34,864 bases of DNA from contig JAJYFF010000026.1 in assembly GCA_021785405.1 (NCBI GenBank), forward strand, positions 1-34,864, given 5' to 3'. Below, piece after piece: positions 1,570 through 33,564 of this stretch. Each line of letters starts with the position of its first letter. Position 1 is the stretch's first letter. Origin of the DNA: Pseudomonadota bacterium (GTDB lineage: Bacteria > Pseudomonadota > Gammaproteobacteria > Steroidobacterales > Steroidobacteraceae). The notes under the pieces are model-generated. The model was not told the DNA's origin. It saw nothing but the letters and a program-made list of their open reading frames with translations, and did not search any database. Position numbers and translations under genes: made by a program.

Positions 1570-2202
1570 ATGACCCGGATCCACCGATTACGTAGCTATG
1601 CGGTGATTGCGGCGGCCACCGTCGCGCTGGCCGCGTGCGCGAGCAAGATGCAGCCCGCGCAACAGATGATTTCCAAGATCGAAGCGGTCGTCGCCGCGGC
1701 GCAACCAGAGGCGGCGAAGTACGTTCCGGACCAGTTGAAGGACGTGCAGGACAAGGTCGCGAACCTCAAGACGGCCTTCGCGCAGCAGGACTACGGTGCG
1801 GTGATCACCGCCGCGCCGTCGGTGCTCGCGTCCGCGCAGGGCCTCGCGGCCGCCGCCGCCCAGAAGAAGTCGGTCGTGATGGGCGAGCTGAACGAGCAAT
1901 GGTCGCGGATCTCCGCGAACCTGCCGGCGAACGTCGCAGCGATCCAGAAGCGGATCGAGGTGCTTTCCCACAACGCGCGCCTGCGCAAGGGAATCGACCT
2001 CGCGGCCGCGAAGAAGGGCCTCGACGACGTGAACACCGCGTGGACCACCGCGCAGAGCGACTTCACGTCCGGGCACCTCGGCCAGGCCGTCACGGCGGCC
2101 AAGGGCGTGCAGACGCAGCTGCAGAGTCTCGCTCAGTCGATCAAGTTCCAGCTGCCGCAGCCGGACGACGCCAGCGGGTCGTCGGCTGCCTCGACGAACT
2201 GA
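1570..2202 (+). CDS. Predicted outer-membrane lipoprotein, helical
   Basis: 210 residues, beginning with a basic n-region, a hydrophobic stretch and a lipobox LAAC ending at Cys23, so it is expected to be lipidated and anchored by signal peptidase II. Asp is not at position +2 (Ala-Ser follow the Cys), which favours outer-membrane sorting by the Lol system in gammaproteobacteria. The mature part is rich in Ala, Lys and Gln and appears almost wholly alpha-helical, with probable coiled-coil stretches. It contains no cysteine or known catalytic motif. A strong Shine-Dalgarno sequence (GGGGAGGA, 1553-1560) lies nine bases before the ATG, and a TAGAAT (1538-1543) may be its -10 box. I do not recognise a named family. 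A perfect hairpin follows the stop codon. Confidence 0.8.
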   Translation: MTRIHRLRSYAVIAAATVALAACASKMQPAQQMISKIEAVVAAAQPEAAKYVPDQLKDVQDKVANLKTAFAQQDYGAVITAAPSVLASAQGLAAAAAQKKSVVMGELNEQWSRISANLPANVAAIQKRIEVLSHNARLRKGIDLAAAKKGLDDVNTAWTTAQSDFTSGHLGQAVTAAKGVQTQLQSLAQSIKFQLPQPDDASGSSAASTN

Positions 2203-2216
2203 CTCGACTCAACCCC

Positions 2217-2244
2217 GGTGGCGGGCGCGCAAGCGCCCGCCACC
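2217..2244. terminator. Perfect 12-bp hairpin with GCAA loop between convergent genes
   Basis: GGTGGCGGGCGC (2217-2228) pairs exactly with GCGCCCGCCACC (2233-2244) across a GCAA loop, a GNRA tetraloop. It lies 14 bases after the lipoprotein stop and 22 bases past the stop of the convergent PhzF gene. No T-run follows on either strand, so classic intrinsic termination is doubtful. It may act as a bidirectional terminator, an mRNA 3'-end stabiliser or a REP-like element. Confidence 0.5.
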
Positions 2245-2266
2245 GCCGTCGCGCGTCGCGCGTCGT

Positions 2267-3166
2267 TCATAGCGCGAGCGTCCCCTCGCCGACGATCACT
2301 GCGTGACCGCCGATGCGCACCGTGGCCGGCCGGCCGGCCTCCAGGTCCCAGCGGACCTCGACGCGTCCCGGGCGCCCGAGATGCGCGCCCTGCAAGCCGA
2401 CGAAACCGGGATCGGCCGGACCGAGTAGCGCCGCCTCGAGCAGGTAGCTCGCGAGCATCGCATGCGCGTTGCCGCTGACCGGATCCTCGGGGATGCCGAT
2501 CGCCGGACAGAACATGCGCGATTCGGTCGTCGCACCGTCGGCGCCCCGCTGGAACGCGAACGCGAAGAATCCGTCGACGCCGAGCTCGCGGCCGAGCGCG
2601 AGCAGCGGTTCGGTCCGCGGCGCGAGCGGTTCGAGCGCGTCCGCGTCGGCGAGCGGGATCAGCAGCCGCGCGCCGCCGTCGCGGCACGCGCGCGCCGCAA
2701 ACGCCTCGTGCAGGCGTTCCCCCGGGAGGCCCAGGGCCTCGGCGACCCGCAGCGTCGTCTTCAGCGGCAGCGGCGCCTCGAGGCGCGGCACGGCCCGTCG
2801 GAACTCGATCGTCGGCGGCCGCTCGGGTCGCCGCGCGTCGCCGCGCACCTCGACCTCGACGATCCCGATCCCGCAGCGCTGCCGGGCGATGCCGGGGGCG
2901 CGGCGGCCGGCGGCGAGCAACGCGGCGTGCGCCGCGAGCGTCGCATGGCCGACGAACGGGGCTTCCTTGCGCGCGCTGAAGAAGCGGATCGCGAGGTCCG
3001 CGTCCGGCGCGCCCGGGCGGCGCACGAACGCGCATTCGGCGTGCGCGAACTCGCGCGCGATCGCTTGCATCCGCCCCGCGTCGAGGCCGTCGGCATCGAG
3101 CACGACCATCGCCGGATTCCCGCCGAACGGGCTCTGCGTGAACGCATCGACATGGAACATCCGCAC
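2267..3166 (-). CDS. PhzF family protein (isomerase/epimerase fold)
   Basis: About 299 residues. The N-terminus VDAFTQSPFGGNPAMVVL, the acidic residue in EFAHAECAFV (the position of the catalytic Glu of PhzF) and the later GHATLAAHAALL and DPVSGNAHAML are the family's two diaminopimelate-epimerase-like half motifs. PhzF itself isomerises a phenazine precursor, but most chromosomal members, such as E. coli YddE, have no proven substrate, and no phenazine genes are present here. The GTG at 3166 is preferred because AGGAGG (3172-3177) precedes it by six bases. The ATG at 3160 and the upstream ATG at 3181 are alternatives; the latter contains the ribosome site. CATAAT on the minus strand (3190-3195) may be the -10 box. 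It diverges from the thiamine operon. Confidence 0.88.
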   Translation of the reverse strand: MRMFHVDAFTQSPFGGNPAMVVLDADGLDAGRMQAIAREFAHAECAFVRRPGAPDADLAIRFFSARKEAPFVGHATLAAHAALLAAGRRAPGIARQRCGIGIVEVEVRGDARRPERPPTIEFRRAVPRLEAPLPLKTTLRVAEALGLPGERLHEAFAARACRDGGARLLIPLADADALEPLAPRTEPLLALGRELGVDGFFAFAFQRGADGATTESRMFCPAIGIPEDPVSGNAHAMLASYLLEAALLGPADPGFVGLQGAHLGRPGRVEVRWDLEAGRPATVRIGGHAVIVGEGTLAL

Positions 3167-3202
3167 GCGCGTCCTCCTCATACGCTGAGATTATGGCGAG
3201 TT

Positions 3203-3231
3203 TTGCACGGGCGCCTCCGGGCCGCTACACT
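3203..3231 (+). promoter_or_regulatory. Sigma-70-type promoter of the thiamine operon
   Basis: TTGCAC (3203-3208) and TACACT (3226-3231) are separated by exactly 17 bases, close to the consensus. The predicted start of transcription, about 3238, falls right at the 5' edge of the TPP aptamer. Confidence 0.75.
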
Positions 3232-3238
3232 GGTCGCG

Positions 3239-3338
3239 CCCAAGGGGTGGCCGCGAGGCCTGAGATGCGCCGCGGTCGCGATGTCGACCCGCGGCGCGAA
3301 CCCGTCGAACCTGATCCGGCTAGTACCGGCGTAGGGAG
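3239..3338 (+). promoter_or_regulatory. TPP riboswitch (THI element)
   Basis: The conserved blocks appear in order: GGGGTGGCC (3244-3252), CCTGAGA (3259-3265), then GAACCCGTCGAACCTGAT (3298-3315) and GGCGTAGGGAG (3328-3338). These are the hallmarks of the thiamine pyrophosphate aptamer. A small GGCC/GGCC helix lies before the CTGAGA block. An optional nine-pair GC helix (GCGCCGCGG with CCGCGGCGC) lies between it and the ACCC block. The final conserved GGGAG also serves as the Shine-Dalgarno sequence of the next gene, nine bases before its ATG, and there is no room for a separate terminator or sequestor. Ligand-bound aptamer would therefore hide the ribosome site directly, repressing translation when TPP is plentiful. 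This mechanism is inferred from the layout. Confidence 0.95.
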
Positions 3339-3347
3339 TGGTCGATC

Positions 3348-3614
3348 ATGCACGCAGCCGTCGAAATCAGCCTGTATCCGCTCGGCGAGGACTACATTCC
3401 GCGGATCCTCGCGTTCATCGAGCGATTGAACCGTCACCGGGATCTGCGCGTCGTCACCAACGACCTCAGCACCCAGATCTGGGGCGAACTCCACCACGTG
3501 ATGCGCGTGCTGAGCGAGGAGTTCGAGCGCGCCGCGAACGACGGGCCGCAGCTCATCTTCGTGATGAAGGTGCTGCCGAAGCTCGCCGCGCCGGCGGCGT
3601 CCGCGCCGACCTGA
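3348..3614 (+). CDS. YkoF-like thiamine/HMP-binding protein, single domain
   Basis: 88 residues. The pattern VEISLYPLGEDYIPRILAFIERLNRH followed by DLRVVTNDLSTQIWGELHHVM and a final strand PQLIFVMKVLP matches the ferredoxin-like fold of the YkoF/MTH1187 group, which binds thiamine or its pyrimidine moiety. B. subtilis YkoF has two such domains in about 200 residues; this one has a single domain and would need to dimerise. There is no signal peptide, so it is probably cytoplasmic. It lies directly under the TPP riboswitch and three bases before the permease gene, so a role in binding or passing on imported thiamine is likely. The exact ligand is an inference. Confidence 0.85.
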   Translation: MHAAVEISLYPLGEDYIPRILAFIERLNRHRDLRVVTNDLSTQIWGELHHVMRVLSEEFERAANDGPQLIFVMKVLPKLAAPAASAPT

Positions 3615-3617
3615 CCG

Positions 3618-4214
3618 ATGCGCGAAGTCCTTGCCCAGCTCGCGGTGGCCTGGCACACCGCGAGCTGGATCGAGATCGTCGCGGCGGTTCTCGCGATCCT
3701 CTATCTGCTGCTCGCGATCGGGCAGCGGCGCAGCTGCTGGGTCGCCGCGTTCACGAGCTCGGCCCTGTACGTGATCGTGATGTTCCACGCGCGGCTCTAC
3801 ATGGAGTCCGTGCTGAACGCGTTCTACGCCGCGATCGCGGTGTACGGATGGTGGCAGTGGTCGCGCCGCTCGAACGAGGCGAACCGCGGGGTGCAGCGCT
3901 GGCCGATCGGCCGCCACGTGTTCGGGTTCCTCGGCGTCGTCGTTTGCTCGCTGTGCAGCGCGTACTTCCTGCGCCGCTACACGCCGGCCGCGTGGCCGTT
4001 CGTCGACTCGATGGTGACCTGGTCGAGCGCGTTCGCGACCTACCTCGTCGCGGTGAAGGTCTACGAGAACTGGCACTGGTGGCTGGTGATCGATTCGGTC
4101 GCGATCTTCGTGTACTTCCGCCGCGAGCTGTATCCGACGATGCTGCTGTTCGGCGTGTACCTGGTGATGATCGGCTTCGGCCTCCGCGAGTGGCGACGGA
4201 GTCTGCCGGCGTGA
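3618..4214 (+). CDS. pnuT: PnuC/PnuT-type vitamin permease, predicted thiamine importer
   Basis: 198 residues with about seven hydrophobic segments. The sequence AVYGWWQWSRR, the later KVYENWHWWLVIDSVAIFVYF and the closing LLFGVYLVMIGFGLREWRR are typical of the PnuC family of facilitators. PnuC members move nicotinamide riboside, riboflavin (PnuX) or thiamine (PnuT) down a gradient, with uptake driven by phosphorylation inside the cell. The TPP riboswitch upstream and the kinase gene downstream favour thiamine. The start ATG is three bases after the previous stop, and its own stop overlaps the kinase start (GTGA). Nicotinamide riboside is the main alternative substrate, but no NAD gene is nearby. 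Confidence 0.9.
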   Translation: MREVLAQLAVAWHTASWIEIVAAVLAILYLLLAIGQRRSCWVAAFTSSALYVIVMFHARLYMESVLNAFYAAIAVYGWWQWSRRSNEANRGVQRWPIGRHVFGFLGVVVCSLCSAYFLRRYTPAAWPFVDSMVTWSSAFATYLVAVKVYENWHWWLVIDSVAIFVYFRRELYPTMLLFGVYLVMIGFGLREWRRSLPA

Positions 4215-5140
4215 CCGGTGCGCCGCACGCCGAGATCGAGCCGATCGCCCGACGCTGCATCCCGGGACGCGGCGCGGTGCGGTTGCAGCGGGTCGGCACC
4301 GGGCTCGGCAGCCGCACCTATCGTGCCGAGCGCGCGGGGCACGCGTATGCGCTGCGGCTCGCACCCGCCGCCGAGCGCGGCGAGGGCTTCGATCCGCGCT
4401 GGGAACATGCGGTGCGCGCGGTCGCCGGCGGGGCGGGCCTCGCGCCCGAGGTCGTGCACTCCGACCCGGTCGCCGGCATCCTCGTGTCGCGCTGGGTCGA
4501 CGGCCGTTCCTGGGACGCGGTCGCGGTCGACGACCCCGGACGCATCGCCGCGGTCGCGGGGCTGATGCGCGCGATCCATGCGCTCACGCCGCCGCAGCCC
4601 GCCCGTCGGGTCGGCGTCGCCGACTGGATCGCCCACTACGAGCGTGCGCTCGGCGGGCCGGCGACGCTCGTCGACGCCGGCGACGCGTTGCGCGCCGCGG
4701 CAAGGCGCCGATTGGCGGTGCTCGCCCGGGTCGACGAGGGCGCCGCGGCGCTGTGCCACAGCGACCTGCACGCGCTGAATCTCGTCGAGACCGCGAGCGG
4801 GCTCGTCGCGCTCGACTGGGAGTACGCACACGTCGGCGATCCGTTCTGGGACGTCGTCGGCTGGAGCTGCGCGAACGACTGGACGGCGGCGACGCGGGCG
4901 GCCTTGCTCGAACGCTATCTGGGGCGCGCGCCGAGCGCTCGCGAAGCGGCGCGCTTCGCGGTGGTCGGGTGGCTGTACGACTACGTCGGCGTGCTGTGGA
5001 GCGAATTGTTCCTGCGCCGCGCCGGCGATGCCGACGCAGCGGACGTGCGCGCGCGCGCCCGGCGGATGATCGAGCGGCTCGAGTCCGCGCACGAGGCTCC
5101 GCTCGTTGCCGAGGATCGGCCCTTTGAGGCAAAATATTGA
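4211..5140 (+). CDS. Aminoglycoside/choline-kinase-fold phosphotransferase, predicted thiamine kinase
   Basis: About 309 residues, starting at a GTG that overlaps the permease stop. The catalytic loop HSDLHALN (His183, Asp185, Asn190) and the metal-binding DWE (Asp202-Glu204) followed by YAHVGDPFWDV are the Brenner and DxD-type motifs of the APH/choline kinase family. E. coli thiamine kinase ThiK (YcfN) belongs here. With the riboswitch and permease the likely reaction is thiamine + ATP to thiamine phosphate, trapping the imported vitamin; thiL elsewhere would then make TPP. It is not a ThiN/TPK-type pyrophosphokinase. Choline or another amino alcohol cannot be excluded from the sequence alone. 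Confidence 0.85.
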   Translation: MTGAPHAEIEPIARRCIPGRGAVRLQRVGTGLGSRTYRAERAGHAYALRLAPAAERGEGFDPRWEHAVRAVAGGAGLAPEVVHSDPVAGILVSRWVDGRSWDAVAVDDPGRIAAVAGLMRAIHALTPPQPARRVGVADWIAHYERALGGPATLVDAGDALRAAARRRLAVLARVDEGAAALCHSDLHALNLVETASGLVALDWEYAHVGDPFWDVVGWSCANDWTAATRAALLERYLGRAPSAREAARFAVVGWLYDYVGVLWSELFLRRAGDADAADVRARARRMIERLESAHEAPLVAEDRPFEAKY

Positions 5141-5514: not shown

Positions 5515-6264
5515 TCATTGCTTGCGGCCCTGGCGGCTGACCGCCTCCTGGGCCGCCGCGATCGCCGCGGGATCGCCGAGGAAGCGGCGCGCGGTCGGCG
5601 CGAGGCTCGCGTCGAATTCGTAGAGGATCGGGACGCCGGTCGGGATGTTGAAGTCGACGATCTCGGCGTCGGACATCCGGTCGAGCATCTTCACCAGCGC
5701 GCGCAGCGAGTTGCCGTGCGCGACGACGAGGACGTTCTGGTTCGCCGCGAGCCGCGGCGCGATCCTCGCGCTCCAGTCCGGACTCACCCGGGACAGCGTG
5801 TCCTTCAGCGATTCGCCCGACGGCAGCTCCCGCGGATCCACGCTCGCGTAACGCGGGTCGAAGCGGGGATGGCTGGGGTCGTCCGCCGGCAGCGGCGGCG
5901 GCGGGATGTCGTAACTGCGGCGCCACAGCTTCACCTGCGCTTCGCCGTGGCGAGCGGCGGTTTGGGCCTTGTCGAGCCCCTGCAAGGCGCCGTAGTGGCG
6001 TTCGTTCAGCCGCCAGCTGTTCTCGACCGGAATCCACATCCGGTCCATCGTGTCGAGCGCGATCCACAGCGTGCGGATCGCGCGCTTCAGGACCGAGGTG
6101 AGCGCGATCTGCGGCAGGATGCGCTCGGCGAGCAGTTCCCGGCCGACCCGCTCGGCCTCGGCGCGGCCTTGGTCGCTCAGGTCGACGTCGACCCAACCGG
6201 TGAACAGGTTCTCCAGGTTCCAGATGCTCTGTCCGTGACGGACGAGGATCAATCTTCCGGGCAT
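5515..6264 (-). CDS. gpmA: 2,3-bisphosphoglycerate-dependent phosphoglycerate mutase
   Basis: 249 residues, the normal length. It interconverts 3- and 2-phosphoglycerate in glycolysis and gluconeogenesis. The N-terminal LVRHGQSIWN carries the phospho-accepting His10. The middle NERHYGALQGLDK holds the acid/base Glu, and VVAHGNSLRAL the second catalytic His. GAGAGG (6274-6279) just at the end of the upstream glutamate dehydrogenase gene gives a ribosome site nine bases before the ATG. The gap to that gene is 13 bases, so it looks like the last gene of the long minus-strand catabolic run. This is an uncommon place for gpmA, and it would couple gluconeogenic flux to amino-acid breakdown. Confidence 0.97.
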   Translation of the reverse strand: MPGRLILVRHGQSIWNLENLFTGWVDVDLSDQGRAEAERVGRELLAERILPQIALTSVLKRAIRTLWIALDTMDRMWIPVENSWRLNERHYGALQGLDKAQTAARHGEAQVKLWRRSYDIPPPPLPADDPSHPRFDPRYASVDPRELPSGESLKDTLSRVSPDWSARIAPRLAANQNVLVVAHGNSLRALVKMLDRMSDAEIVDFNIPTGVPILYEFDASLAPTARRFLGDPAAIAAAQEAVSRQGRKQ

Positions 6265-6277
6265 GGTCGTTTGCCTC

Positions 6278-9200
6278 TCACTCGCCGGCCAGGCGGCGTA
6301 TCGACTGCAGCGCGACCGACAGGGTCGCGAAGTCCGCGCCCCCGCTCGAGCGCAGGTCCGCGATCAAGCCGTCGAGGCTCGCGATCTCGGTGCGCCGCCC
6401 GCCGAGCCAGGACTCGACGCGCGCCGCCGCGGACCCCTTGTGGCTCGCGAGCACCGCGGCGGTGATCTTCCGCTGCAGCGCGAACGAGGTGTCGCGCAAG
6501 GTCGCGCGCGCGACCGCGTGCCAGTGCGCGTCGCTCGGCAGCGCGTCGATCTGTTCCTTCGCCCACGCGAGACCGATGCGTTCGCCGAGCGCGAAATAGG
6601 CCTGCGCCGCGAACGTGACCGGCACGCGGGCCGCCGCCGCCACCTCGACCAGGTCGAGCGCCCCGTGGAGCGAGGCGAGCGCGGCGATCCGTGCCGCGAG
6701 CCCGTCGGGGACGCGCTCGCCGACGAGGCGCATCCGCGCCGCGTCGTAGCGCATCCGTTCGCCGGCGCCCAGGGTCGAATGGACCTCGCGCATCAGTTCG
6801 CGCACGCCTTCGGCGTAGCGCCGCACGCCGCGCCGGACGTCGAGGTCGACGCGCTTCTGCATCAGCAACCAATAGATCATGTGCCGCAGGATCCGCACCG
6901 TCTGCTCGAACGCGTCGTACTGGATCGAGCTCGCGACCCGGTTGTCGAGCGCCTCGATCTGCAGCCAGATCTCGCGCATCGCGAACACCTCGCGGGCGAT
7001 CGTGTACGCGCGCGCGACCGCGGCCGGGCTCGCGCCGGTGTCCTCGACCGCGCGCACCGGAAACACCGGACCCATCCGGTTGATCAGTCCGTTCGTGACC
7101 GCGGTCGCGATGATCTCCCGGCGCAGCCGATGGCGCTTGATGCGCGTCGCGAAACGCGCGCGCACCGGCGCCGGGAAGTAGCGCTCGAGTTCGTCGGCGA
7201 GATAGTCGTCCTCCGGCACGTCGGACTCGATCAGCGCCTTGTCGAGCCAGATCTTGCCGTAGGAGAGCGCGATCGCGATCTCCGGCCGGGTGAGGCCTTC
7301 GCCCGATTTGCGCCGCTCCGCGATCTCCTCGTCGCTCGGCAGGGACTCGAGCGCCCGGTTCAGCTGCCCGGCGCGCTCGAGCGCGCGCAACAGGAACGCG
7401 CTCTCGCCGAGCCGCTCCTTCGCCCGGTCCTGCGTCACGCTGATCGCGAGGCTCTGCAGATAGTTGTTCCGCAGCACCAGCGCGGCGACCTCGTCGGTCA
7501 TCTTCGCGAGCAGGCGGTCGCGCGCGGCGCGGGTGATCTCCCCGGCCTGCATCGCGCCGTTCAGCAGGATCTTCAGATTGACCTCGACGTCGGAGGTGTT
7601 CACGCCGGCCGAGTTGTCGATGAAATCGGTGTTCAGCCGGCCGCCGCGGCGCGCGTACTCGACCCGCGCGGCCTGCGACAGGCCGAGATTGCCGCCTTCG
7701 CCGACGACCTTGCAGCGCAAGTCGCGCGCATCGACACGGACCGCGTCATTGGTCCGGTCGCCGACGTCCGCGTGGCTCTCGTGGCTCGCTTTCACGTAGG
7801 TGCCGATGCCGCCGTTCCACAACAGGTCCACGTCGAGCTTGAGGATCGCCTTGATCGCCTCGTTCGGCGTGGTTTGCGCCGGCAGCCCGAGCAGGGCTTG
7901 CGCTTCGCGCGACAGCGGGATGCTCTTCGCGTTGCGCAGGTAGATCCCGCCGCCCTTCGACAGCACGTCGGTCGAGTAGTCGTCCCAGCCCGAGCGCGGC
8001 AGCTTGAACAAGCGGGTGCGCTCGCGGAACGAGCGCGCCGCGTCCGGCGACGGGTCGATGAACACGTGCTGGTGGTTGAAGGCCGCGAGCAGGCGGATGT
8101 GCGGAGACTGCAGCATTCCGTTGCCGAACACGTCGCCCGCCATGTCGCCGATCCCGGCGACGCTGAACTCGCGGCGCTGGATGTCGACCCCCATCTCGCG
8201 GAAGTGCCGCTTCACGCACTCCCAGGCGCCGCGCGCGGTGATCGCCATCTTCTTGTGGTCGTAGCCCGCGGAACCGCCGGATGCGAACGCGTCGCCGAGC
8301 CAGAACCCGTAGGACTCGGAGATCTCGTTCGCGATGTCGGAGAACGTCGCGGTGCCCTTGTCCGCGGCGACGACCAGGTAGGGGTCGTCGTCGTCGTGGC
8401 GCACGACCCGCGGCGGGGGCACGATCCGGTCGCCGGCGATGTTGTCGGTCAGATCGAGCAGGCCGCGGATCAGCGTGCGGTAGCACGCGACGACCTCCGC
8501 CTGCTGCGCGTCGCGCCCGCCCTCCGGGAGCCGCTTCGCGACGAAACCGCCCTTCGCGCCGACCGGCACGATCATCGTGTTCTTGACGTTCTGCGCCTTC
8601 ATCAGCCCGAGGATCTCGGTGCGGAAATCCTCGAGGCGGTCCGACCAGCGGATGCCGCCGCGCGCGACCCGCCCCATGCGCAGGTGCACGCCCTCCATCC
8701 GCGTGGAGTACACGAAGATCTCCCACAGCGGCTTCGGCAGCGGCAGCTCCCGCACCCGCTGGCTCGCGATCTTGAAGGACAGGTACTCCTTCCCGGCGCC
8801 GGCCGCATCGCGCTGCCACGCGTTGGTGCGCACGGTCGCGTCGATCGCGTTCCACAGCGCGCGCAGGATCCGGTCCTCGTCCGAGCGGCGGACCGCCTCG
8901 AGCGCGGTGCCGAGCGAGGTGGTCAGGCGCTTCTGCGCGGTCCGGCGCGGGCCGGGCCCGAGGTCGGGGTCGAAGCGCGCGACGAACAGGTCGGCGAGCA
9001 ACCGGGCGGCGCCGGCGTTCTGCGTGAGCACCTGCGCGACGTAGCCCTGGCTGTACGGCAGGCCCGTCTGCAGCAGGTAGCGGGCGTACGCGCGCAGCAC
9101 CGTCACGAGCCGCCACGGCACGCCCGCGTGCAGCGTCAAGCGGTTGAGTCCGTCGTTGTCCATCCGGCCCGACCAGACGGCGGTGAACGTGTTCTTCAGC

Positions 9201-11101
9201 TCCGCCGCGCGCGACTCGAATCGCGCCTGGACGGACGCCGGCACCTCGAGTTCGAGGTCCTGGATCCAGCCGTGCTGGCCGTCCAGGTAGTCGAGTCCAT
9301 AGGGCCGCTCGGCGATCACGCGCAGCCCCATGTTCTCGAGCATCGGCAGCAGGTCCGAGATCGGGATCGCGTCCCCGCCGCGGTAGATCTTCAGGAACAC
9401 CCGGTCCTTGCGCTTCGGGTCCGCGCGGTAGATGTCGAGCTGCGGCTTCGCCGGGTCGCGCGCGATCGCCTCGAGGAACGACACGTCGTTCGCGGCCACC
9501 TCGCCGCCGAAGTCCTCGGTGTAGGCGGCCGGGAACGCCGGTGCGTACTTCTCGAACAGCTCGAGCGCGTGGGCTTCGTCCAGACGCGCGAGCAGCGCGG
9601 CCTTGAATCCGTCGGCCCAGGAGCGCACCGCCGCCTCGATCGCGCGCTCGACCGTCGCCGCGTCGACGCGCTGCGTCTCGCTCGGCTGCGTGCGCGCGAC
9701 GACGTGGATGCGCGCCAGGTTCGACTGCGCGATCTCGACCTGCGAGTCGAGATGGAACGCCTCGGTCGCCTCCTGCAGCACCCGTTCGATGCGCTGGCGA
9801 ACCTGGGTGTTGTACTTCTCGCGCGGCACGAACACGAGGCAGGAGTAGAAGCGGCGGAACGGATCGCGACGCATCAGCAGGCGCACGCGCGGCCGCTCCT
9901 GCAGGCCGAAGATCCCGCTCGCGATGCGCACGAGATCCGGGACGCTCGCCTGGAACAGCTCGTCGCAGGGGAAGGCCTCGAGGATGTGCTGCAGCGCCTT
10001 GCCGTCGTGGCTGTCCGGGGCGAGCGCGAACTCGGCGACCACGCGCGCGAACTTGTGGCGCACGAGCGGAATGTCGCGCGGATTGGCGTTGTACGCGCTC
10101 GAGGTCCACAGGCCGAGGAAACGCCGCTCGCCGAGCAAGCGCCCGGACGGGTCGAAGCGCTTCACGCCGACGTAGTCGAGATAGCCGGCGCGATGCACGG
10201 TCGACTGCGTGTTCGACTTGGTGACCAGCGCGAGCTCGCTGCGCCGGCTCTCGCGACGGATGTCGCCCGGCAGCGCCCGCGCGCCCCGCGCGCCGCGGCG
10301 GGGCCCGTGCCGCAGGATCCCGAGACTGCTCTCCTCGATCGGCACCAGGGTCTCGCGCCCGGGTGCGCCGCCGAGGCGGTATTCGCGATAGCCGAGGAAC
10401 GTGAAGTGCCGGTCGACCATCCAGTCGAGCAAGGCCCGGGTCTCCTCGGCGTCGCGCTCGTCGCCGCGTACCGGACCGTGCTGCAGCTCGTACGCGATCT
10501 CCCGCGCCGCCGCCTCCATCTTGTGCCAGTCGCCGTACGCGAGCCGCACGTCGTCGAGGTTGCGCTCGATCTCCTGCGCGAGCGCCGCGAGCGCTGCGGC
10601 GTCGACGATGCGGTCGACCTCGATGTGCTGGAAGGATTCCAGGCGGGCGCCGCGCGCGCTCTCGCGCACGGTGCGCGGATGCAGCGCGGTGAGGTGCCCG
10701 CGCGGATCGCGCGAGACCGCGAAGATCGGGTGCGCGAGGAAGTGCATCGTGAGGCCGCGACGCTGGAACGCGAGGCCGATCGAGTCGACGAGGAACGGCA
10801 TGTCCTCGCCGACCATTTCGACGACCGTGTGGGGCGAGGAATACCCGTCCTCGCGCACGGTCGGGTTGAACACGCGGACCGCGCAGCGTCCGCGGCGCCG
10901 CACGCGCGCGAACTTCAGGTGCGCGAGCGCGCTCGCCGCGAGCTCCGCCGGCGCGCGTGCGGCGATGTCCTCCGGATCGACGTTCTCGAAATACGCGCGC
11001 AGGTAGGATGCGGCGTGCACCCCCGCGACCGGGCTGCGGCGCACGGCCGCGGCGATCGCCCGGATCGACTGTTGATGGGACTCGGACATGGTCAACGACA
11101 T
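6278..11101 (-). CDS. gdhB: NAD-specific glutamate dehydrogenase, large (180-kDa) class
   Basis: 1607 residues, the size of the large NAD-GDH class found in Pseudomonas, Caulobacter and Streptomyces. It oxidises glutamate to 2-oxoglutarate and ammonia with NAD+. The first 700 residues form the long regulatory part with ACT-like segments. The catalytic core begins near residue 800 with GGIRWSDRLEDFRTEILGL and PVGAKGGFV, the second holding the active-site Lys. A helical C-terminal part follows. The start ATG has AAGGAG (11110-11115) eight bases upstream; this ribosome site overlaps the stop codon of the E2 gene, showing tight coupling. The start at 11089 is a weaker choice. Co-transcription with a 2-oxoacid dehydrogenase suggests a catabolic role. 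Confidence 0.97.
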   Translation of the reverse strand: MSLTMSESHQQSIRAIAAAVRRSPVAGVHAASYLRAYFENVDPEDIAARAPAELAASALAHLKFARVRRRGRCAVRVFNPTVREDGYSSPHTVVEMVGEDMPFLVDSIGLAFQRRGLTMHFLAHPIFAVSRDPRGHLTALHPRTVRESARGARLESFQHIEVDRIVDAAALAALAQEIERNLDDVRLAYGDWHKMEAAAREIAYELQHGPVRGDERDAEETRALLDWMVDRHFTFLGYREYRLGGAPGRETLVPIEESSLGILRHGPRRGARGARALPGDIRRESRRSELALVTKSNTQSTVHRAGYLDYVGVKRFDPSGRLLGERRFLGLWTSSAYNANPRDIPLVRHKFARVVAEFALAPDSHDGKALQHILEAFPCDELFQASVPDLVRIASGIFGLQERPRVRLLMRRDPFRRFYSCLVFVPREKYNTQVRQRIERVLQEATEAFHLDSQVEIAQSNLARIHVVARTQPSETQRVDAATVERAIEAAVRSWADGFKAALLARLDEAHALELFEKYAPAFPAAYTEDFGGEVAANDVSFLEAIARDPAKPQLDIYRADPKRKDRVFLKIYRGGDAIPISDLLPMLENMGLRVIAERPYGLDYLDGQHGWIQDLELEVPASVQARFESRAAELKNTFTAVWSGRMDNDGLNRLTLHAGVPWRLVTVLRAYARYLLQTGLPYSQGYVAQVLTQNAGAARLLADLFVARFDPDLGPGPRRTAQKRLTTSLGTALEAVRRSDEDRILRALWNAIDATVRTNAWQRDAAGAGKEYLSFKIASQRVRELPLPKPLWEIFVYSTRMEGVHLRMGRVARGGIRWSDRLEDFRTEILGLMKAQNVKNTMIVPVGAKGGFVAKRLPEGGRDAQQAEVVACYRTLIRGLLDLTDNIAGDRIVPPPRVVRHDDDDPYLVVAADKGTATFSDIANEISESYGFWLGDAFASGGSAGYDHKKMAITARGAWECVKRHFREMGVDIQRREFSVAGIGDMAGDVFGNGMLQSPHIRLLAAFNHQHVFIDPSPDAARSFRERTRLFKLPRSGWDDYSTDVLSKGGGIYLRNAKSIPLSREAQALLGLPAQTTPNEAIKAILKLDVDLLWNGGIGTYVKASHESHADVGDRTNDAVRVDARDLRCKVVGEGGNLGLSQAARVEYARRGGRLNTDFIDNSAGVNTSDVEVNLKILLNGAMQAGEITRAARDRLLAKMTDEVAALVLRNNYLQSLAISVTQDRAKERLGESAFLLRALERAGQLNRALESLPSDEEIAERRKSGEGLTRPEIAIALSYGKIWLDKALIESDVPEDDYLADELERYFPAPVRARFATRIKRHRLRREIIATAVTNGLINRMGPVFPVRAVEDTGASPAAVARAYTIAREVFAMREIWLQIEALDNRVASSIQYDAFEQTVRILRHMIYWLLMQKRVDLDVRRGVRRYAEGVRELMREVHSTLGAGERMRYDAARMRLVGERVPDGLAARIAALASLHGALDLVEVAAAARVPVTFAAQAYFALGERIGLAWAKEQIDALPSDAHWHAVARATLRDTSFALQRKITAAVLASHKGSAAARVESWLGGRRTEIASLDGLIADLRSSGGADFATLSVALQSIRRLAGE

Positions 11102-11113
11102 GGACCGATCTCC

Positions 11114-12211
11114 TTAACGGGGCTCCTGGAGGTCCGCGATCACCGCGGCGAGGAATCGGCAGGCTTCGCCGCCGGTCACGCAGCGGTGATCGAAGCTGAG
11201 CGAGAGCGGCAAGCGGCGCCGCGCGAGGATCCGTCCGTCGCGCGCCACCGGCTCGACGCGCACCCTGCCGGCGCCGAGGATCGCGACCGCCGGGGGGACG
11301 ACCTGCGGGATCGCGTAGCGACCGGCGACCGTGCCGTAGTTCGACAGCGTGAACGTCGCGTCGCGCAGGTCCTCCGGCGCGAGCTTGCGCGCGTGGGCCG
11401 CCGCCTTGCGCTCGGCGAGCGCGGCGGCCAGCGCCTGCGGCGCGAGCGCACCAGCGTCGCGGATCACCGGCACGATCAGACCATCGGCGGTGTCGACCGC
11501 GATCGCGAGGTCGAGACGCGAATGCAGGGTGCGCGCCTCGCGATCGGGGTCGAACCAGGCGTTCAGCGCCGGCTCCACGCGCGCCGCCGCGGCGATCGCC
11601 CGGATCAGCCGCTGCGTGCAGCCGCCCGCGTGTTCCCAGTCGTCGACGTCGGCGTCGTCGCACACGGTGCTGAGCGCGACCTGGGCATGCGCGAGCGCCA
11701 TCGACGCGCGCATCGCGCGCCGCAGCCCGCGCAAGGGCTGGCCCGCGGCATCCACCGCTCGCGGCGCCGCGCCGAGCACGTCGTCGATCGTGATCAGGCC
11801 GGCGCGGCCGGTCCCGGCGACGGACCCGAGGTCGACCGCGAGGCGCTTCGCGAGCGCTCTCGCGGCGGGCATCGCGCGCACGCGCGCGCTCGCGCGGGGG
11901 CCGTCGCGACGGTCGTCGCTCGCGACCGGCTCCGGCGGCAGCTCGACGTTCGATCGGGGGATCTCGCCGACGACGGTGCCGTCGTCGAAGTCGATCAGCG
12001 GCGCGCCGGTCGCGATCACGTCGCCCGCCGCGCCGTGCAGTGCGAGCACCGTGCCCGCGAACGGCGCGGGCACCTCGACGACCGCCTTCGCCGTCTCGAC
12101 CGAGAGCATCGGTTGATCCGCGGCGACGCGATCGCCGACCTGCACGTGCCATGCGACGATCTCGGCCTCGCTCAGCCCTTCGCCGAGATCGGGCAGGTGG
12201 AACGTCGTCAT
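11114..12211 (-). CDS. 2-oxoacid dehydrogenase E2, dihydrolipoyl acyltransferase
   Basis: 365 residues. Residues 1-80 form one lipoyl domain with the lipoylated Lys in SVETAKAVVEVPAP. A short linker is followed by a peripheral-subunit-binding domain near 110-150 (MPAARALAKRLAVDLGSVAGTGRAG) and the acyltransferase domain. The catalytic His342 lies in SFDHRCVTGGEA; the usual HRxxDG reads HRCVTG, with Thr346 where Asp is common. It forms the core of the E1-E2-E3 complex and passes the acyl group to CoA. The ATG overlaps the E1beta stop (ATGA). Pyruvate, branched-chain oxoacids or acetoin could be the substrate; thiolase and ETF-QO neighbours favour branched-chain oxoacids. No E3 gene is in the window. 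Confidence 0.92.
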   Translation of the reverse strand: MTTFHLPDLGEGLSEAEIVAWHVQVGDRVAADQPMLSVETAKAVVEVPAPFAGTVLALHGAAGDVIATGAPLIDFDDGTVVGEIPRSNVELPPEPVASDDRRDGPRASARVRAMPAARALAKRLAVDLGSVAGTGRAGLITIDDVLGAAPRAVDAAGQPLRGLRRAMRASMALAHAQVALSTVCDDADVDDWEHAGGCTQRLIRAIAAAARVEPALNAWFDPDREARTLHSRLDLAIAVDTADGLIVPVIRDAGALAPQALAAALAERKAAAHARKLAPEDLRDATFTLSNYGTVAGRYAIPQVVPPAVAILGAGRVRVEPVARDGRILARRRLPLSLSFDHRCVTGGEACRFLAAVIADLQEPR

Positions 12212-13203
12212 CGCGAGTCGACCATCACGGCGCGGACCGCGTCGACGATCCGGCGAACGCTCGGGATGTACTCGCGTTCGAGCCGATAGAGCGGCATCAC
12301 CGTGTCGTAGCCGGCGACCCGCCGGATCGGCGCGAGCAGGTCGTACAAGCCGTCCTCGGCGACGATCGCGGCGACCTCGGCGCCGACGCCGACGTTGCGC
12401 GCGGCTTCCTGGACGATCACCAGTCGACCGGTCTTCGCGACCGAGTCGAGGATCGTCGTCGCGTCGATCGGGCTCAGGCTCGCCAGGTCGATCACTTCGG
12501 CGTCCACGCCGGCCGCGACGAGCTCGGCGGCGGCCTGCAGGGTCTCGGCGATCATCGCCCCCCAGGAGACGATCGTCACGTCGGCCCCTTCGCGCAGCAC
12601 GAACGCCCGGTCGAGCGGCAGCGCCCGGCCGTCGTCGGGGACTTCCTGCCGCGACGCGCGGTACAGCCGCGTCGGCTCGAGGAACATCACCGGATCCGGG
12701 TCCCGGATCGCGGCGAGCAGCAGCCCGTACGCCCGCGCGGGCGAGGAGGGGCACACGACGCGCAGGCCGGGGACGTGACACAGCAAGGTCTCGACGCTCT
12801 CGGAATGGTGCTCCGGCGCGTGGATCCCGCCGCCGTGCGGCATCCGCATCACGATCGGGCAACTCAGGCGCCCGCGGGTGCGGTGACGCATGCGCGACAT
12901 GTGGTTGATGATCTGGTCGAGCGCGGGATACAGGAAACCCATGAACTGGATCTCCGCGATCGGCTTCAAGCCTTGCGCGGCCATGCCGATCGCGACGCCG
13001 GCGATCGCCGCCTCCGCGAGCGGCGTGTCCTGCACGCGCTCGGCGCCGAAGCGCTGCTGCAGTCCCTGGGTCGCGCGGAACACGCCGCCGTTCGCGCCGA
13101 CGTCCTCGCCGATCACGACGACCGCCGGATCGTGCTGCAGCTCCCAGGCGTGCGCCATCGCGACCGCCTCGACCATCGTCACCTTCGTCAAGTCAGTGCC
13201 CAC
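12208..13203 (-). CDS. 2-oxoacid dehydrogenase E1 component, beta subunit
   Basis: About 331 residues. LTKVTMVEAVAMAHAWEL, VIGEDVGANGGVFRAT, QDTPLAEAAIAGVAIGMA and the central MRMPHGGGIHAPEHHSES are the standard E1beta motifs of heterotetrameric branched-chain and pyruvate dehydrogenases. EDV contacts the TPP aminopyrimidine region and the paired His sit near the active site. With E1alpha it decarboxylates a 2-oxoacid and acylates the E2 lipoyl group. The GTG at 13203 overlaps the E1alpha end by 11 bases; a TTG at 13191 is also possible, and neither has a strong ribosome site, so the start is uncertain by a few residues. The substrate is probably a branched-chain oxoacid from context. Confidence 0.92.
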   Translation of the reverse strand: MGTDLTKVTMVEAVAMAHAWELQHDPAVVVIGEDVGANGGVFRATQGLQQRFGAERVQDTPLAEAAIAGVAIGMAAQGLKPIAEIQFMGFLYPALDQIINHMSRMRHRTRGRLSCPIVMRMPHGGGIHAPEHHSESVETLLCHVPGLRVVCPSSPARAYGLLLAAIRDPDPVMFLEPTRLYRASRQEVPDDGRALPLDRAFVLREGADVTIVSWGAMIAETLQAAAELVAAGVDAEVIDLASLSPIDATTILDSVAKTGRLVIVQEAARNVGVGAEVAAIVAEDGLYDLLAPIRRVAGYDTVMPLYRLEREYIPSVRRIVDAVRAVMVDSR

Positions 13204-29126: not shown

Positions 29127-29858
29127 ATGACCGACCTCGTTCGCATCGTCCTCGTCGAGCCGAGCCATCCCGGCAACGTCGGCTCCGTCGCGCGCGCGAT
29201 GAAGACCATGGCGCTCTCGGACCTGGTGTTGGTGCGGCCGCGCGCGTTCCCGCACCCGGACGCGGTCGCGCTCGCGGCCGGCGCGGACGACGTGCTCGCC
29301 GCCGCGCGCGTCGTCGATTCGGTCGCGGACGCGGTCGCCGACTGCGCGTTCGTCGCCGGCACGACCTCCCGACCCCGCAACTTCAGCTGGGAGTTCGCGA
29401 CGCCGCGGGAGACCGCGGCGCGCGTCGCGGCGCTGCCCGACGGGACCCGCGCGGCGTTGTTGTTCGGCTCCGAGCGCTTCGGGCTCGCGAACGAGGATCT
29501 CGCGCATTGCGCGTTGCTCGTGCGCATACCGGCGAATCCCGCGTATGCCTCGTTGAACCTCGCGATGTCGGTGCAGTTGCTGACCTACGAGCTGTTCGTC
29601 GCGCGCGAGCGGCCCGAGGGGAAGCGGCAGTGGGAGGCGCCGCCCGCGGAGGCGGCGGAACTCGAACACCTCTACGCGCACCTCGCGCAGGTGCTCGCCG
29701 AGGTCGAGTTCGCGGACCGTACCGGGTACCTGATGGAGCGGTTGCGCCGATTGTTCAACCGGACCGGCCTCGACAAGAACGAGATCAATCTGCTGCGCGG
29801 GATCCTGAGCGCGGTCTCGGGCAAGCGTCGGCGCGCGGGGGCGGGACGCGGCGAATGA
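29127..29858 (+). CDS. trmJ: tRNA (cytidine/uridine-2'-O-)-methyltransferase TrmJ
   Basis: 243 residues. SPOUT-family motifs are present: PSHPGNVGSVARAMKTM near the N-terminus, LLFGSERFGLANEDL in the middle, and NPAYASLNLAMSVQLLTYEL in the knot. TrmJ methylates the 2'-OH of nucleotide 32 in several tRNAs. The C-terminal extension (about residues 165-230) is the dimer and tRNA-binding part. Its stop overlaps the iscS start (ATGA), so it heads the remaining isc genes. In relatives iscR would lie between the two. Confidence 0.97.
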   Translation: MTDLVRIVLVEPSHPGNVGSVARAMKTMALSDLVLVRPRAFPHPDAVALAAGADDVLAAARVVDSVADAVADCAFVAGTTSRPRNFSWEFATPRETAARVAALPDGTRAALLFGSERFGLANEDLAHCALLVRIPANPAYASLNLAMSVQLLTYELFVARERPEGKRQWEAPPAEAAELEHLYAHLAQVLAEVEFADRTGYLMERLRRLFNRTGLDKNEINLLRGILSAVSGKRRRAGAGRGE

Positions 29859-31036
29859 GCCCGCCGGTCTATCTCGACCATGCGGCGACGACGCCGGTGG
29901 ATCCGCGGGTCGCCGCGGCGATGGCCGAGTGCCTGACCGCGGACGGCGTGTTCGGCAATCCGGCCTCGGCCGGGCACGTCCACGGCGAGGCCGCATTCGA
30001 GCGCGTCGAGGCGGCGCGCGCCGCGGTCGCCGCCGCGGTCGGCGCGGATCCGCAGGAGGTCGTGTTCACCTCGGGAGCGACCGAGGCGGACAACCTCGCG
30101 ATCTTCGGCGTCGCGGAGCACGCGCGGCCGCGCGGCCGGCACGTGGTCACGGCGCGCACCGAGCACAAGGCCGTGCTCGATCCCTGCCGCGAACTCGAGC
30201 GGCGTGGCTGGCAGGTCACCTACCTGGCGCCGGACGAGCGCGGCCGGGTCGCGCCCGATCGGCTGGCGGCCGCGCTGCGCGCCGATACGGTGCTGGTCTC
30301 GCTGATGCACGTGAACAACGAGATCGGCACCGTGCAGGACGTCGCCGCGTTCGCGGCGGTCTGCGAACGGCACGGCGGGGCGTGGCTGCACGTCGACGCG
30401 GCGCAGAGCGTCGGCAAAGTCGCGCTCGATTTCCACGCGAGCGGCGCCGCGCTGATGTCGCTGTCCGCGCACAAGAGCCATGGCCCGAAGGGCGTCGGCG
30501 CGCTGCTGCTGTCGCGGCGCCACGGCGTGCGGATCGAGCCGCGCCAGTTCGGCGGCGGTCAGGAGCGGGGTCTGCGCTCCGGGACCGTCGCGACCCACCA
30601 GGTGGTCGGCATGGCCGCGGCCTTCGCGCTCGCGGTCGCCGCGCGGCCGGCCGAGGCGATCCGGCTCGCCGCGTTGCGCGAGCGCTTGTGGCGCGGTCTC
30701 GAGGCCCACGGCGGCGCGCTGCGCAACGGGGCGCCGGAGGACACCGTGGCGGCGATCCTGAACGTGTCGTTCGCCGACGTCGAGGGCGAAAGCCTGCTCG
30801 CGGCGGTGGCGCCGCGGATCTCGGTGTCGACCGGGTCGGCGTGCACGTCCGCGAGCGGCGAACCCTCGTACGTGCTGCGCGCGCTCGGGCGCGACGAGCG
30901 GCTCGCGGAGGCGAGCCTGCGCTTCGGGCTCGGGCGCTCGACCTCGGCCGAGGACGTCGACGAGGCGATCGCCGCGGTCGGCGCGGCCTTGTCGCGCCTG
31001 CGGCGGATCGGTGGCGGATGCGCTATAGCGAGCTGA
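29855..31036 (+). CDS. iscS: Cysteine desulfurase IscS, lacking the C-terminal tail
   Basis: 393 residues. It moves sulfur from cysteine as a persulfide for Fe-S clusters and tRNA thiolation. VYLDHAATTPVDPRV opens the protein; the PLP-binding Lys207 is in SAHKSHGPKGVGAL and the persulfide Cys330 in STGSACTSASGEPSYVLRAL. Register with E. coli IscS (Lys206, Cys328) is ungapped through the C-terminal half. At that point the E. coli protein has about 20 further residues ([20 protein letters not shown]), known to matter for IscU binding, and this one ends in a short unrelated [10 protein letters not shown]. The active loop has Gly in place of the usual Leu before EPSY. Its end overlaps the next gene by 19 bases. 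Confidence 0.95.
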   Translation: MSPPVYLDHAATTPVDPRVAAAMAECLTADGVFGNPASAGHVHGEAAFERVEAARAAVAAAVGADPQEVVFTSGATEADNLAIFGVAEHARPRGRHVVTARTEHKAVLDPCRELERRGWQVTYLAPDERGRVAPDRLAAALRADTVLVSLMHVNNEIGTVQDVAAFAAVCERHGGAWLHVDAAQSVGKVALDFHASGAALMSLSAHKSHGPKGVGALLLSRRHGVRIEPRQFGGGQERGLRSGTVATHQVVGMAAAFALAVAARPAEAIRLAALRERLWRGLEAHGGALRNGAPEDTVAAILNVSFADVEGESLLAAVAPRISVSTGSACTSASGEPSYVLRALGRDERLAEASLRFGLGRSTSAEDVDEAIAAVGAALSRLRRIGGGCAIAS

Positions 31037-31398
31037 CGCGGCAGTATTTCGAGCGAGCGCCGTGTGCCGGGACGCTCGCGGGGCCGGACGTCGTCTCGGG
31101 CGTCGCCGGCCGCCGGCCGCTCGGGACCTGGGTGCGCTTCGATCTGCGGATCGCGCCCGCCGCGGCGCGCGGGCCGCAGATCCTCGAGGCGCGCTTTCTC
31201 GCGTTCGGCTGTCCGCACACGATCGCGGTCGCCGCGTGGGTCGCCGAGCAGGCCGCCGGGCGCCCCGCGTCGGCCGAGTTGCCGCAACCGGTCGACGCAC
31301 TGCGGCGGTCGTTCGAGGTCCCGGTGGAGAAACTCGGCCGCTTGCTGGTGGTCGAAGATGCATGGCGGGCTGCGACCGCCGCCGCCGCGAAGAAATGA
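31018..31398 (+). CDS. Degenerate IscU-like scaffold homologue
   Basis: 126 residues, the length and fold pattern of IscU. It starts [15 protein letters not shown] (compare MAYSEKVIDHYENP in E. coli IscU), and [21 protein letters not shown] aligns with DARFKTYGCGSAIASSSLVTE. Of the three cluster cysteines only the middle one remains (Cys65). The first is Leu35 and the conserved Asp two residues on is Thr37; the His-Cys pair near the end is Gly107-Arg108. LPPVK, the HscA recognition motif, reads VPVEK. It therefore should not hold a [2Fe-2S] cluster as IscU does. It is read with iscS (19-base overlap) and precedes iscA. Its present function is unknown. Confidence 0.85.
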
Positions 31399-31474: not shown

Positions 31475-31798
31475 ATGGCGATCGTTTTGACGGAGGCGGC
31501 GGCGGAACGGGTGCGGACGCATCTCGCGAAGCGCGGCAGCGGCGTCGGGCTGCGGCTCGGGGTCAAGAAGACCGGATGTTCGGGTTTCGCCTACGTCGTG
31601 AACTACGCCGATGCGGTCGGCGCCGACGATGCGGTGTTCGAGGTCGGCGGCGTCACGGTCGTCGTCGACCGCACGAGCTTGCCGATGCTCGACGGGACGG
31701 TCGTCGACTTCGTGAAGCAGGGGCTGAACGAGGCGTTCAAGTTCCACAACCCGAGGGCGAAGAGCGAGTGCGGCTGCGGCGAGAGCTTTAGCGTCTGA
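31475..31798 (+). CDS. iscA: Iron-sulfur cluster assembly protein IscA
   Basis: 107 residues, the same as E. coli IscA. The three ligand cysteines are kept: Cys35 in [10 protein letters not shown] and Cys99/Cys101 in [11 protein letters not shown]. The stretch [18 protein letters not shown] is of the IscA rather than ErpA or SufA type. A-type proteins receive clusters from a scaffold and pass [4Fe-4S] clusters to targets. Since the neighbouring scaffold homologue is degenerate, it probably works with SUF-made clusters here. GGGAGG (31459-31464) is ten bases before the ATG. The 76-base gap before it, with a hairpin and possible -10, may give it separate control. Confidence 0.96.
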
Positions 31799-31973: not shown

Positions 31974-32405
31974 ATGTCCATCGAGCGTACCCTTTCGATC
32001 GTCAAGCCCGACGGCGTCTCCCGCAACCTGATCGGCGAGGTCTATCGCCGGTTCGAGGCGGCGGGCTTGCGGATCGTCGCCGCGCGCATGCTGCACCTGT
32101 CGCAGGCGCAAGCCGAGGCGTTCTACGGCGTGCATCGCGAGCGGCCGTTCTTCAAGGACCTGGTGCGCTTCATGACCTCGGGACCGGTGATGGTGCAGGT
32201 GCTGGAGGGCGAGGGCGCGATCGCCAGGAACCGCGACGTCATGGGGGCGACGGATCCGAAGAAGGCGGCGCCGGGCACGATCCGCGCCGACCTCGCGAGC
32301 ACGATCGACGAGAACGTCGTGCACGGCTCGGATGCCGCCGACACCGCGGCGCGCGAGATCGCGTTCTTCTTCAGCGAGACCGAGATCTGTCCGCGAACCC
32401 GCTGA
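31974..32405 (+). CDS. ndk: Nucleoside diphosphate kinase
   Basis: 143 residues, the usual size. [18 protein letters not shown] is the standard opening, [18 protein letters not shown] and [18 protein letters not shown] follow, and [12 protein letters not shown] carries the phosphorylated His. It balances NTP and dNTP pools. The ATG at 31974 has GAGGT (31964-31968) five bases upstream; the upstream in-frame extension is not conserved. It begins the ndk-rlmN-pilF-rodZ run, which in Pseudomonas follows the complete isc operon. Confidence 0.98.
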
Positions 32406-32433: not shown

Positions 32434-33564
32434 ATGTCCGCCTCGGTCGACGATCGCGTGAACCTCCTCGGCCTGCCGCGGGCCGAGCTCGAGGCGTTCG
32501 TCGCCGCGCGCTTCGGCGCGAAGCCGTTCCGTGCGCGGCAGCTGTTGCAATGGATCCACCGTCGCGGCGCGTCGAGCTTCCAGGAGATGACCGACCTCGC
32601 CAAGGGGTTTCGAGCCGAACTCGAGGCCGTGGCGACGATCGCGGTCCCGCAGATCGTCGCGTCCCAGTCCTCGAGCGACGGCACGCGCAAGTGGCTGCTG
32701 CGGATGGACGCGAGCCAGGGGATCGAGACCGTGTTCATCCCGGAGCCCGACCGCGGGACGCTGTGCATCTCGAGCCAGGTCGGTTGCGCGATGGACTGCG
32801 GCTTCTGCGCGACCGCGCGCCAGGGGTTCAATCGCAACCTGAGCGCCGCGGAGATCGTCGGCCAGGTGTGGCTCGCGCGGCGCGAACTCGCCGCGGCCGC
32901 CGCCGCCGGCGAGACGCCGCGCTCGATCACCAACGTGGTGTTCATGGGGATGGGCGAGCCGCTCGCGAACTACCGCAACGTGCTGCCGGCGACGCGGATC
33001 CTGCTCGACGACCTGGCCTACGATCTGTCGCGCCGCCGGGTCACGCTCAGCACCTCGGGTCTCGTGCCGCAGATCCATCGGCTCGCCGAGGACTGCAACG
33101 TCGCGCTCGCGGTGAGCCTGCACGCGCCGAACGATGCGCTGCGCGACCAGCTGGTGCCGATCAACCGCAAGCATCCGATCGCCGAGCTGCTCGCGGCGTG
33201 CTGGCACTACCTGGAGCGCCAGAACGGGCGCAGCGTGACGTTCGAGTACGTGATGCTGGATGGGGTGAACGACCAGCCGGAGCACGCGCGGCAGCTCGCG
33301 CGGCTGCTGCGCGGGCGGCCCGCGAAGCTCAACCTGATCCCGTTCAACCCCTTCGTCGGCACGCAGTTCGTTCGTTCGCCGGACGCGGCGATCCTCGCGT
33401 TTCGGGATATATTGAACGACATGGGAGTGATCGCGACGATACGGCGGACCCGCGGCGGCGACATCGACGCGGCCTGCGGCCAGCTGGCGGGCCGCGTCCA
33501 GGATCGCGTCGTGGTGCGGCTCGGCACGAAGCTCGCGCGAGCGCCCGCGGAGGCGCGGCCGTGA
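32434..33564 (+). CDS. rlmN: Dual-specificity 23S rRNA/tRNA adenine-C2 methyltransferase
   Basis: 376 residues. The radical-SAM motif C-x3-C-x2-C is Cys118, Cys122 and Cys125 in [25 protein letters not shown] and [18 protein letters not shown] are family signatures. Cys348 in [11 protein letters not shown] is the residue that forms the methylated intermediate. It methylates A2503 of 23S rRNA and A37 of some tRNAs, and needs a [4Fe-4S] cluster. The ATG at 32434 has GGAG nine bases upstream. Its stop overlaps the pilF start (GTGA). Confidence 0.98.

Follow-up and report, generated by a model that had tools for sequence, protein, structure and literature searches.

SufU is a U-fold protein with three cysteines and an aspartate that acts with SufS as a zinc-dependent sulfurtransferase, taking sulfur from the desulfurase and not serving as a scaffold. 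The contacts of IscU with the cysteine desulfurase IscS, as given in an excerpt of PMC2854127, are Tyr3, Tyr11, Gly38, Val40, Lys42, Lys59-Gly64 and Lys103; the same excerpt cites a disulfide between Cys328 of E. coli IscS and Cys63 of IscU, and has TusA docking elsewhere on IscS than IscU. Excerpts of two other papers describe natural CD-rhodanese fusions, in which a desulfurase is joined to its own sulfur acceptor (PMC8931425), and a degenerated A-type domain of NfuA that has been kept although it lacks a ligand cysteine (PMC8593673).

The window (the whole stretch of DNA analyzed, 34,864 nucleotides of contig JAJYFF010000026.1 from a member of the Steroidobacteraceae) contains an IscU-derived gene, here called U', whose product resembles IscU and ISCU2 in predicted fold, size, place after iscS, Gly38, Lys103 and Cys63 (numbered as in E. 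coli IscU), but differs from them in lacking Cys37, Asp39, His105, Cys106 and the LPPVK motif, in having Pro64 where they have glycine, in the absence of HscA, and in being often fused to IscS. Like SufU, U' would be a partner with the U fold that draws its sulfur from a desulfurase, but the three cysteines and aspartate kept in SufU, including the SufU of the window genome (L001), are absent from U'. As a proposed single-cysteine acceptor of sulfur from Cys328 of IscS for tRNA thiolation, U' would be comparable to TusA, which belongs to another protein family and, according to the excerpt of PMC2854127, has another docking site on IscS. The CD-rhodanese fusions in the excerpt of PMC8931425 have a rhodanese as acceptor, whereas U' is IscU-like, and the NfuA domain in that of PMC8593673 is of another family and is fused to Nfu, not to a desulfurase. 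Neither U' nor an IscS-IscU fusion was found in the titles or abstracts of open-licence PMC papers, and the novelty of both is provisional.

Identity of U' and conservation of its residues

U' (positions 31018 to 31398, plus strand, 126 amino acids) was identified by its NifU_N profile match, alignment and predicted fold. A MAFFT alignment with E. coli IscU (NC_000913.3) bears out the residue-by-residue alignment made by eye in the preliminary description: Cys37 is replaced by Leu35, Asp39 by Thr37, His105-Cys106 by Gly107-Arg108 and LPPVK by VPVEK, while Cys63 is kept as Cys65 (followed by Pro66 and His67) and Lys103 as Lys105. The second cysteine of the window protein, Cys16, lies in a column where cysteine occurs in 5 of 95 sequences. 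U' narrowly passes the gathering cut-off of Pfam family NifU_N (PF01592; 24.6 bits versus 22), and so belongs to that homology superfamily, but falls far short of the cut-off of the IscU equivalog TIGR01999 (24.4 bits versus 192.4). With neither the three cysteines and Asp39 nor LPPVK and an HscA partner, it is not classed as an IscU scaffold, nor is it classed as SufU, the zinc-ligand set of which (Cys, Asp, Cys, Cys) it lacks. The AF2 model of U' from six sequences is of moderate confidence (pLDDT 69, pTM 0.61), and its best Foldseek matches in the PDB are human ISCU2 (E 4.6e-6) and E. coli IscU (1.3e-5), both from desulfurase complexes. A profile of 41 diverse U' members, among which mean column identity is only 33%, gives solved IscU approximately 60 bits versus 23 bits for SufU. 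U' is related to IscU, and its predicted fold is that of IscU.

A relative of U' was found in 96 of the 100 Steroidobacteraceae genomes sampled (91 genomes with matches, the window's own included, plus G053 and four genomes of genus g15); no U' locus was found in G048, G064 and G096, and G097 yielded only a different desulfurase. A scan of GTDB with one protein gave five loci, the relative L035 being classed within the Steroidobacteraceae. Of the 95 rows in the family alignment, 90 come from the 91 matched family genomes (all but G036) and five are the GTDB records; tallies out of 94 omit L004, a duplicate of L034. By exact tally, Cys37, Asp39, His105 and Cys106 are kept in none of the 95 sequences, whereas Cys63 is kept in 91 of 94, Lys103 in 83 and Gly38 in 72; position 105 is glycine in 86 of 94 and position 106 arginine in 87 of 94, and histidine follows the Cys-Pro pair in 72 of 94. 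Leu99, Pro101 and Val102 of LPPVK, Val40 and the N-terminal tyrosines are not conserved. Thus, the homologue search suggested in the preliminary description finds the same substitutions fixed across the family, and relatives with all three cysteines, which would have contradicted it, do not appear (Cys37 and Cys106 in 0 of 95). Misalignment is out as the source of the ligand loss, the substitutions being fixed in 95 aligned relatives. Arg106 was also considered as a partner of Cys63, and was rejected because the association (Fisher p 2e-5, uncorrected) is not significant among kinship-corrected independent pairs (median p 0.25).

Outside the family, Cys63 is present in 28 of 30 sequences from the same order and in 7 of 13 from other Gammaproteobacteria with an eroded U protein. 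Over all 138 sequences, Cys37 is found in none, Asp39 in three, Cys106 in six and Cys63 in 127. Partly eroded forms occur as well: L163 lacks Cys37 and Asp39 and retains Cys63, His105 and Cys106; L164 and L166 have Cys106 and lack both Cys37 and Cys63 (the latter replaced by asparagine); and L165 has no cluster cysteine left.

Gene order, IscS and IscS-U' fusions

In the window, U' is part of a plus-strand gene series consisting of trmJ (tRNA Cm32/Um32 methyltransferase, 29127 to 29858), iscS (cysteine desulfurase of 393 amino acids, 29855 to 31036), U', iscA (31475 to 31798; 147.4 bits against TIGR02011, cut-off 150.6), ndk (31974 to 32405) and rlmN (32434 to 33564), the last two being conserved downstream genes. 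The end of trmJ overlaps the start of iscS, and U' has an intact frame and shares 19 nucleotides with the end of iscS; the preliminary description likewise called the frame intact and tightly coupled to iscS. The order trmJ-iscS-U'-iscA-ndk-rlmN, without hscBA-fdx, is conserved in most loci: iscS is upstream of U' in 95 of 95 and iscA beside it in 94 of 95, trmJ is present in 58 of the 61 loci with at least 2.2 kb of upstream sequence, and ndk and rlmN are each present in 55 of the 58 with at least 2 kb of downstream sequence. Queries with E. coli HscB, HscA, Fdx, IscX and IscR gave no match within the fetched U' loci. The trmJ gene is an old neighbor of the iscS region, in E. coli also (NC_000913.3). 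Elsewhere in the window, long plus-strand ORFs, including one at 6263 to 12286, have no Pfam match; a gene for NAD-glutamate dehydrogenase (6278 to 11101, minus strand) lies under a plus-strand ORF of 2008 amino acids without a Pfam match, which is a GC-rich shadow ORF.

The window IscS keeps Cys328 and the PLP lysine (Lys206), and Cys328 is kept in all 95 loci. Canonical IscS proteins end in a tail of the form PLWxM...W, found in all eight canonical tails read (from 13 loci, of which four gave none and L123 was another protein), and the window IscS lacks this tail. No EWA or EWS end was found among 57 separate IscS proteins of the family, and no PLWxM...W end among 23 IscS tails from eroded loci outside it, where L163 has PLW followed by a stop (40 such loci were considered; 15 gave no tail and two, L159 and L162, have tandem desulfurases). 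Loss of the IscS tail accompanies loss of the IscU ligands. The tandem desulfurases of L159 and L162 consist of a second iscS-like ORF (274 and 237 bits, respectively) between trmJ and the U'-linked iscS.

The iscS frame continues without a stop into U' in 38 of the 95 loci, creating an IscS-U' fusion, and three fusions are found outside the family (L156, L171 and L174). Linkage and fusion mark U' as a genetic partner of IscS; of physical binding, fusion gives indirect evidence. Pfam recognizes both domains on one chain in L019, L065 and L156; in L171, which has no Cys63, it finds the desulfurase only, and the U' end is recognized by the family profile (44 bits). In some fusions, the N-terminal helix of U' is shortened or absent. 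Genus g15 has gone further, with a single ORF of approximately 800 amino acids encoding TrmJ, IscS and U' in G015, G035 and G052 (L175 of G015, positions 2026 to 4416 of the plus strand, 797 amino acids; also L177 and L178). In the G015 protein, Pfam finds TrmJ and the desulfurase and misses NifU_N; the family profile recognizes the U' end (46.5 bits), in which GCPH is kept. In G067, the fourth g15 genome, the two halves are on two contigs, both broken at the contig end. The fusion recurs across many draft genomes, and on an IscS tree made from 144 rows by a quick search the fused or separate state changes ten times, an approximate figure because 60 of the 140 inner branches have support below 80. 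A branch with support of 97.9 has all 133 rows with an eroded U protein on the same side. The preliminary description could not see the recurrent fusion, the TrmJ-IscS-U' protein, the missing IscS tail or the connection with HscA loss described below.

Selection, spread and accompanying pathways

Among six pairs drawn from four close loci, NG86 estimates of dN/dS are 0.29-0.37 for U', as against 0.17-0.29 in iscS and 0.05-0.12 in iscA, by which U' is evidently under purifying selection, looser than that on iscS and iscA. These ratios, the near-fixed motifs and the wide presence across the family uphold the earlier judgment that U' does not look like a decaying pseudogene; a pseudogene is unlikely, and that candidate was rejected. 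Among the matches listed, only G017 has a stop, at its C-terminal end. A tblastn search of 72,556 plasmid records for spread by plasmids found nothing at E<=1e-5. A phylum-wide draw found U' in 2 of 398 genomes, both of the same class, at E<=1e-18, a strict limit at which weaker members are missed.

HscA scored above its cut-off in none of 100 family genomes; weaker matches to the HscA model (E<=1e-100), by inference DnaK, are found in 90 of them, mostly one each. Outside the family, where the U proteins of all 40 genomes were read, HscA is above its cut-off in 1 of 24 genomes with an eroded U protein versus 15 of 16 with canonical IscU, the canonical set being the best-scoring among the matches listed and not random, and the eroded set likewise coming from among the matches listed. 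The sixteenth canonical genome (G144) has an HscA-like gene approximately 1 kb from its IscU, and in the lone eroded-U genome with HscA (G349) a further contig carries HscA together with a nearby canonical IscU that has all three cysteines. Both systems thus coexist in G349, the canonical IscU and HscA and the IscS-U' fusion being on separate contigs (L156, L187).

SufB is encoded by all 20 family representatives (one as a fragment), by 22 of the 24 outside genomes with an eroded U protein and by 4 of 16 genomes with canonical IscU, fragments counted. Erosion of the U protein goes along with disappearance of the ISC pathway. SUF is present in the window genome, where a canonical SufU is encoded in a sufS-sufU-sufT-Rieske series; this SufU is the genome's other NifU_N match, which leaves no true iscU elsewhere in that genome and disposes of the possibility, raised with the first observation, that U' is the dying copy of a pair. 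TusA is over its cut-off in 4 of 20 family representatives, 11 of 24 outside eroded-U genomes and 15 of 16 canonical-IscU genomes. Replacement of TusA by U' was considered and is suggestive only, TusA being present alongside U' in the window genome; absence of TusA does not by itself demand a substitute. Of 44 eroded-U genomes, 41 have MnmA; it is missing from G476, G122 and G369. Both MnmA and clear SufB matches are absent from G122 and G369 (L165 and L166), which are drafts 91% and 77% complete; the partly eroded L164, L165 and L166 belong to G212, G122 and G369, respectively.

Possible roles of U' on IscS

Most members of U' keep the IscS contacts Gly38, Cys63 and Lys103, though not Val40 or the N-terminal tyrosines, while the residues for the cluster and for HscA are gone, and a normal scaffold function is unlikely from these sequences. 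Given the contacts that are kept and the lasting attachment of U' to IscS in many lineages, U' is most simply read as a partner that resides on IscS and takes sulfur from it; being tethered for good would suit such a resident better than a scaffold, which has to depart for HscA and HscB. U' would then be a former IscU turned dedicated subunit or domain of IscS, docked at the IscU site beside the mobile Cys328 loop. It would build no clusters any more, cluster building having moved to SUF; Cys63 would take the persulfide of Cys328, and the sulfur would be handed to clients other than Fe-S proteins, above all tRNA thiolation of the MnmA or ThiI type, a role that in E. coli involves TusA. That IscU, after takeover by SUF, has become an IscS-resident subunit, whose Cys63 probably receives a persulfide meant for clients other than Fe-S proteins (tRNA thiolation, for example), is to our judgment an evenly balanced proposition. 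MnmA is nearly always present, in keeping with a tRNA client; the TrmJ fusion points to tRNA only weakly, since trmJ is an old neighbor, and gene adjacency alone may favor fusion without special function. The sulfur acceptor, the IscS regulator and the carrier for tRNA thiolation put forward in the preliminary description are all candidates on the sequence evidence.

In the main rival reading, U' would serve IscS structurally or allosterically as a subunit: seated at the IscU site, it would tune desulfurase activity and cover the Cys328 loop, or keep other partners away, its cysteine taking no part in the chemistry. Cys63 is not always needed, being gone in 11 of 138 sequences by approximately eight changes on the tree, the fused forms L091, L171 and L174 included, and Cys328 is still present in the IscS of L091, L084 and L037, the first of which is one of these cysteine-less fusions. 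Pro64 is kept more widely than Cys63 (93 of 94 sequences in the family, 30 of 30 in the order and 11 of 13 in the class), which suits a structural role, and the degenerated, retained A-type domain in the excerpt of PMC8593673 offers a precedent. The near-fixation of Cys63 in the family beside the complete loss of Cys37 and Cys106, however, is hard to explain unless most members use the thiol. A structural or allosteric part of this kind is a possibility that we hold tentatively, on the doubtful side; a role in the structure or regulation of IscS may all the same be the common denominator of the group.

Improbable in comparison with what is seen of the pathway is binding of a cluster or metal by U' through other ligands (Cys63, His65 and a ligand from Cys328 of IscS or from IscA) in the service of the adjacent IscA. 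The constant neighborhood of iscA and the frequent histidine after Cys-Pro would fit such binding, but there is no second conserved cysteine, Asp39 and Cys106 are gone, HscA is not over its cut-off in any family genome, hscB and fdx were not found within the fetched loci, SUF is present with its own SufU, and iscA may itself serve SUF. Least credible of all is that U' is a relic in decay, under relaxed selection and travelling with its operon, for although U' evolves faster than iscS and iscA and the forms L163 to L166 resemble steps of erosion, its occurrence in nearly every family genome, the single terminal stop, the nearly fixed Pro64, Gly105 and Arg106 and the many in-frame fusions tell against it.

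Returning to U' as a sulfur-taking subunit of IscS, a wider proposal, plausible but somewhat short of an even chance, is that IscS has acquired a permanent IscU-derived single-cysteine relay domain for tRNA modification, by repeated fusion after SUF replaced ISC, and that together with the three-domain TrmJ-IscS-U' protein of one genus this makes a distinct class of desulfurase. U' offers a natural experiment on the role of IscU beyond holding a cluster: in genomes that lack HscA and carry SUF, IscU has been kept with one cysteine and part of its IscS face, and is often joined to IscS. Sulfur handling is here separated from cluster scaffolding, and the role of individual IscU cysteines becomes testable. 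Annotation of a gene as IscU does not imply the ISC pathway. If the proposal is true, the built-in persulfide relay would define a distinct class of cysteine desulfurase.
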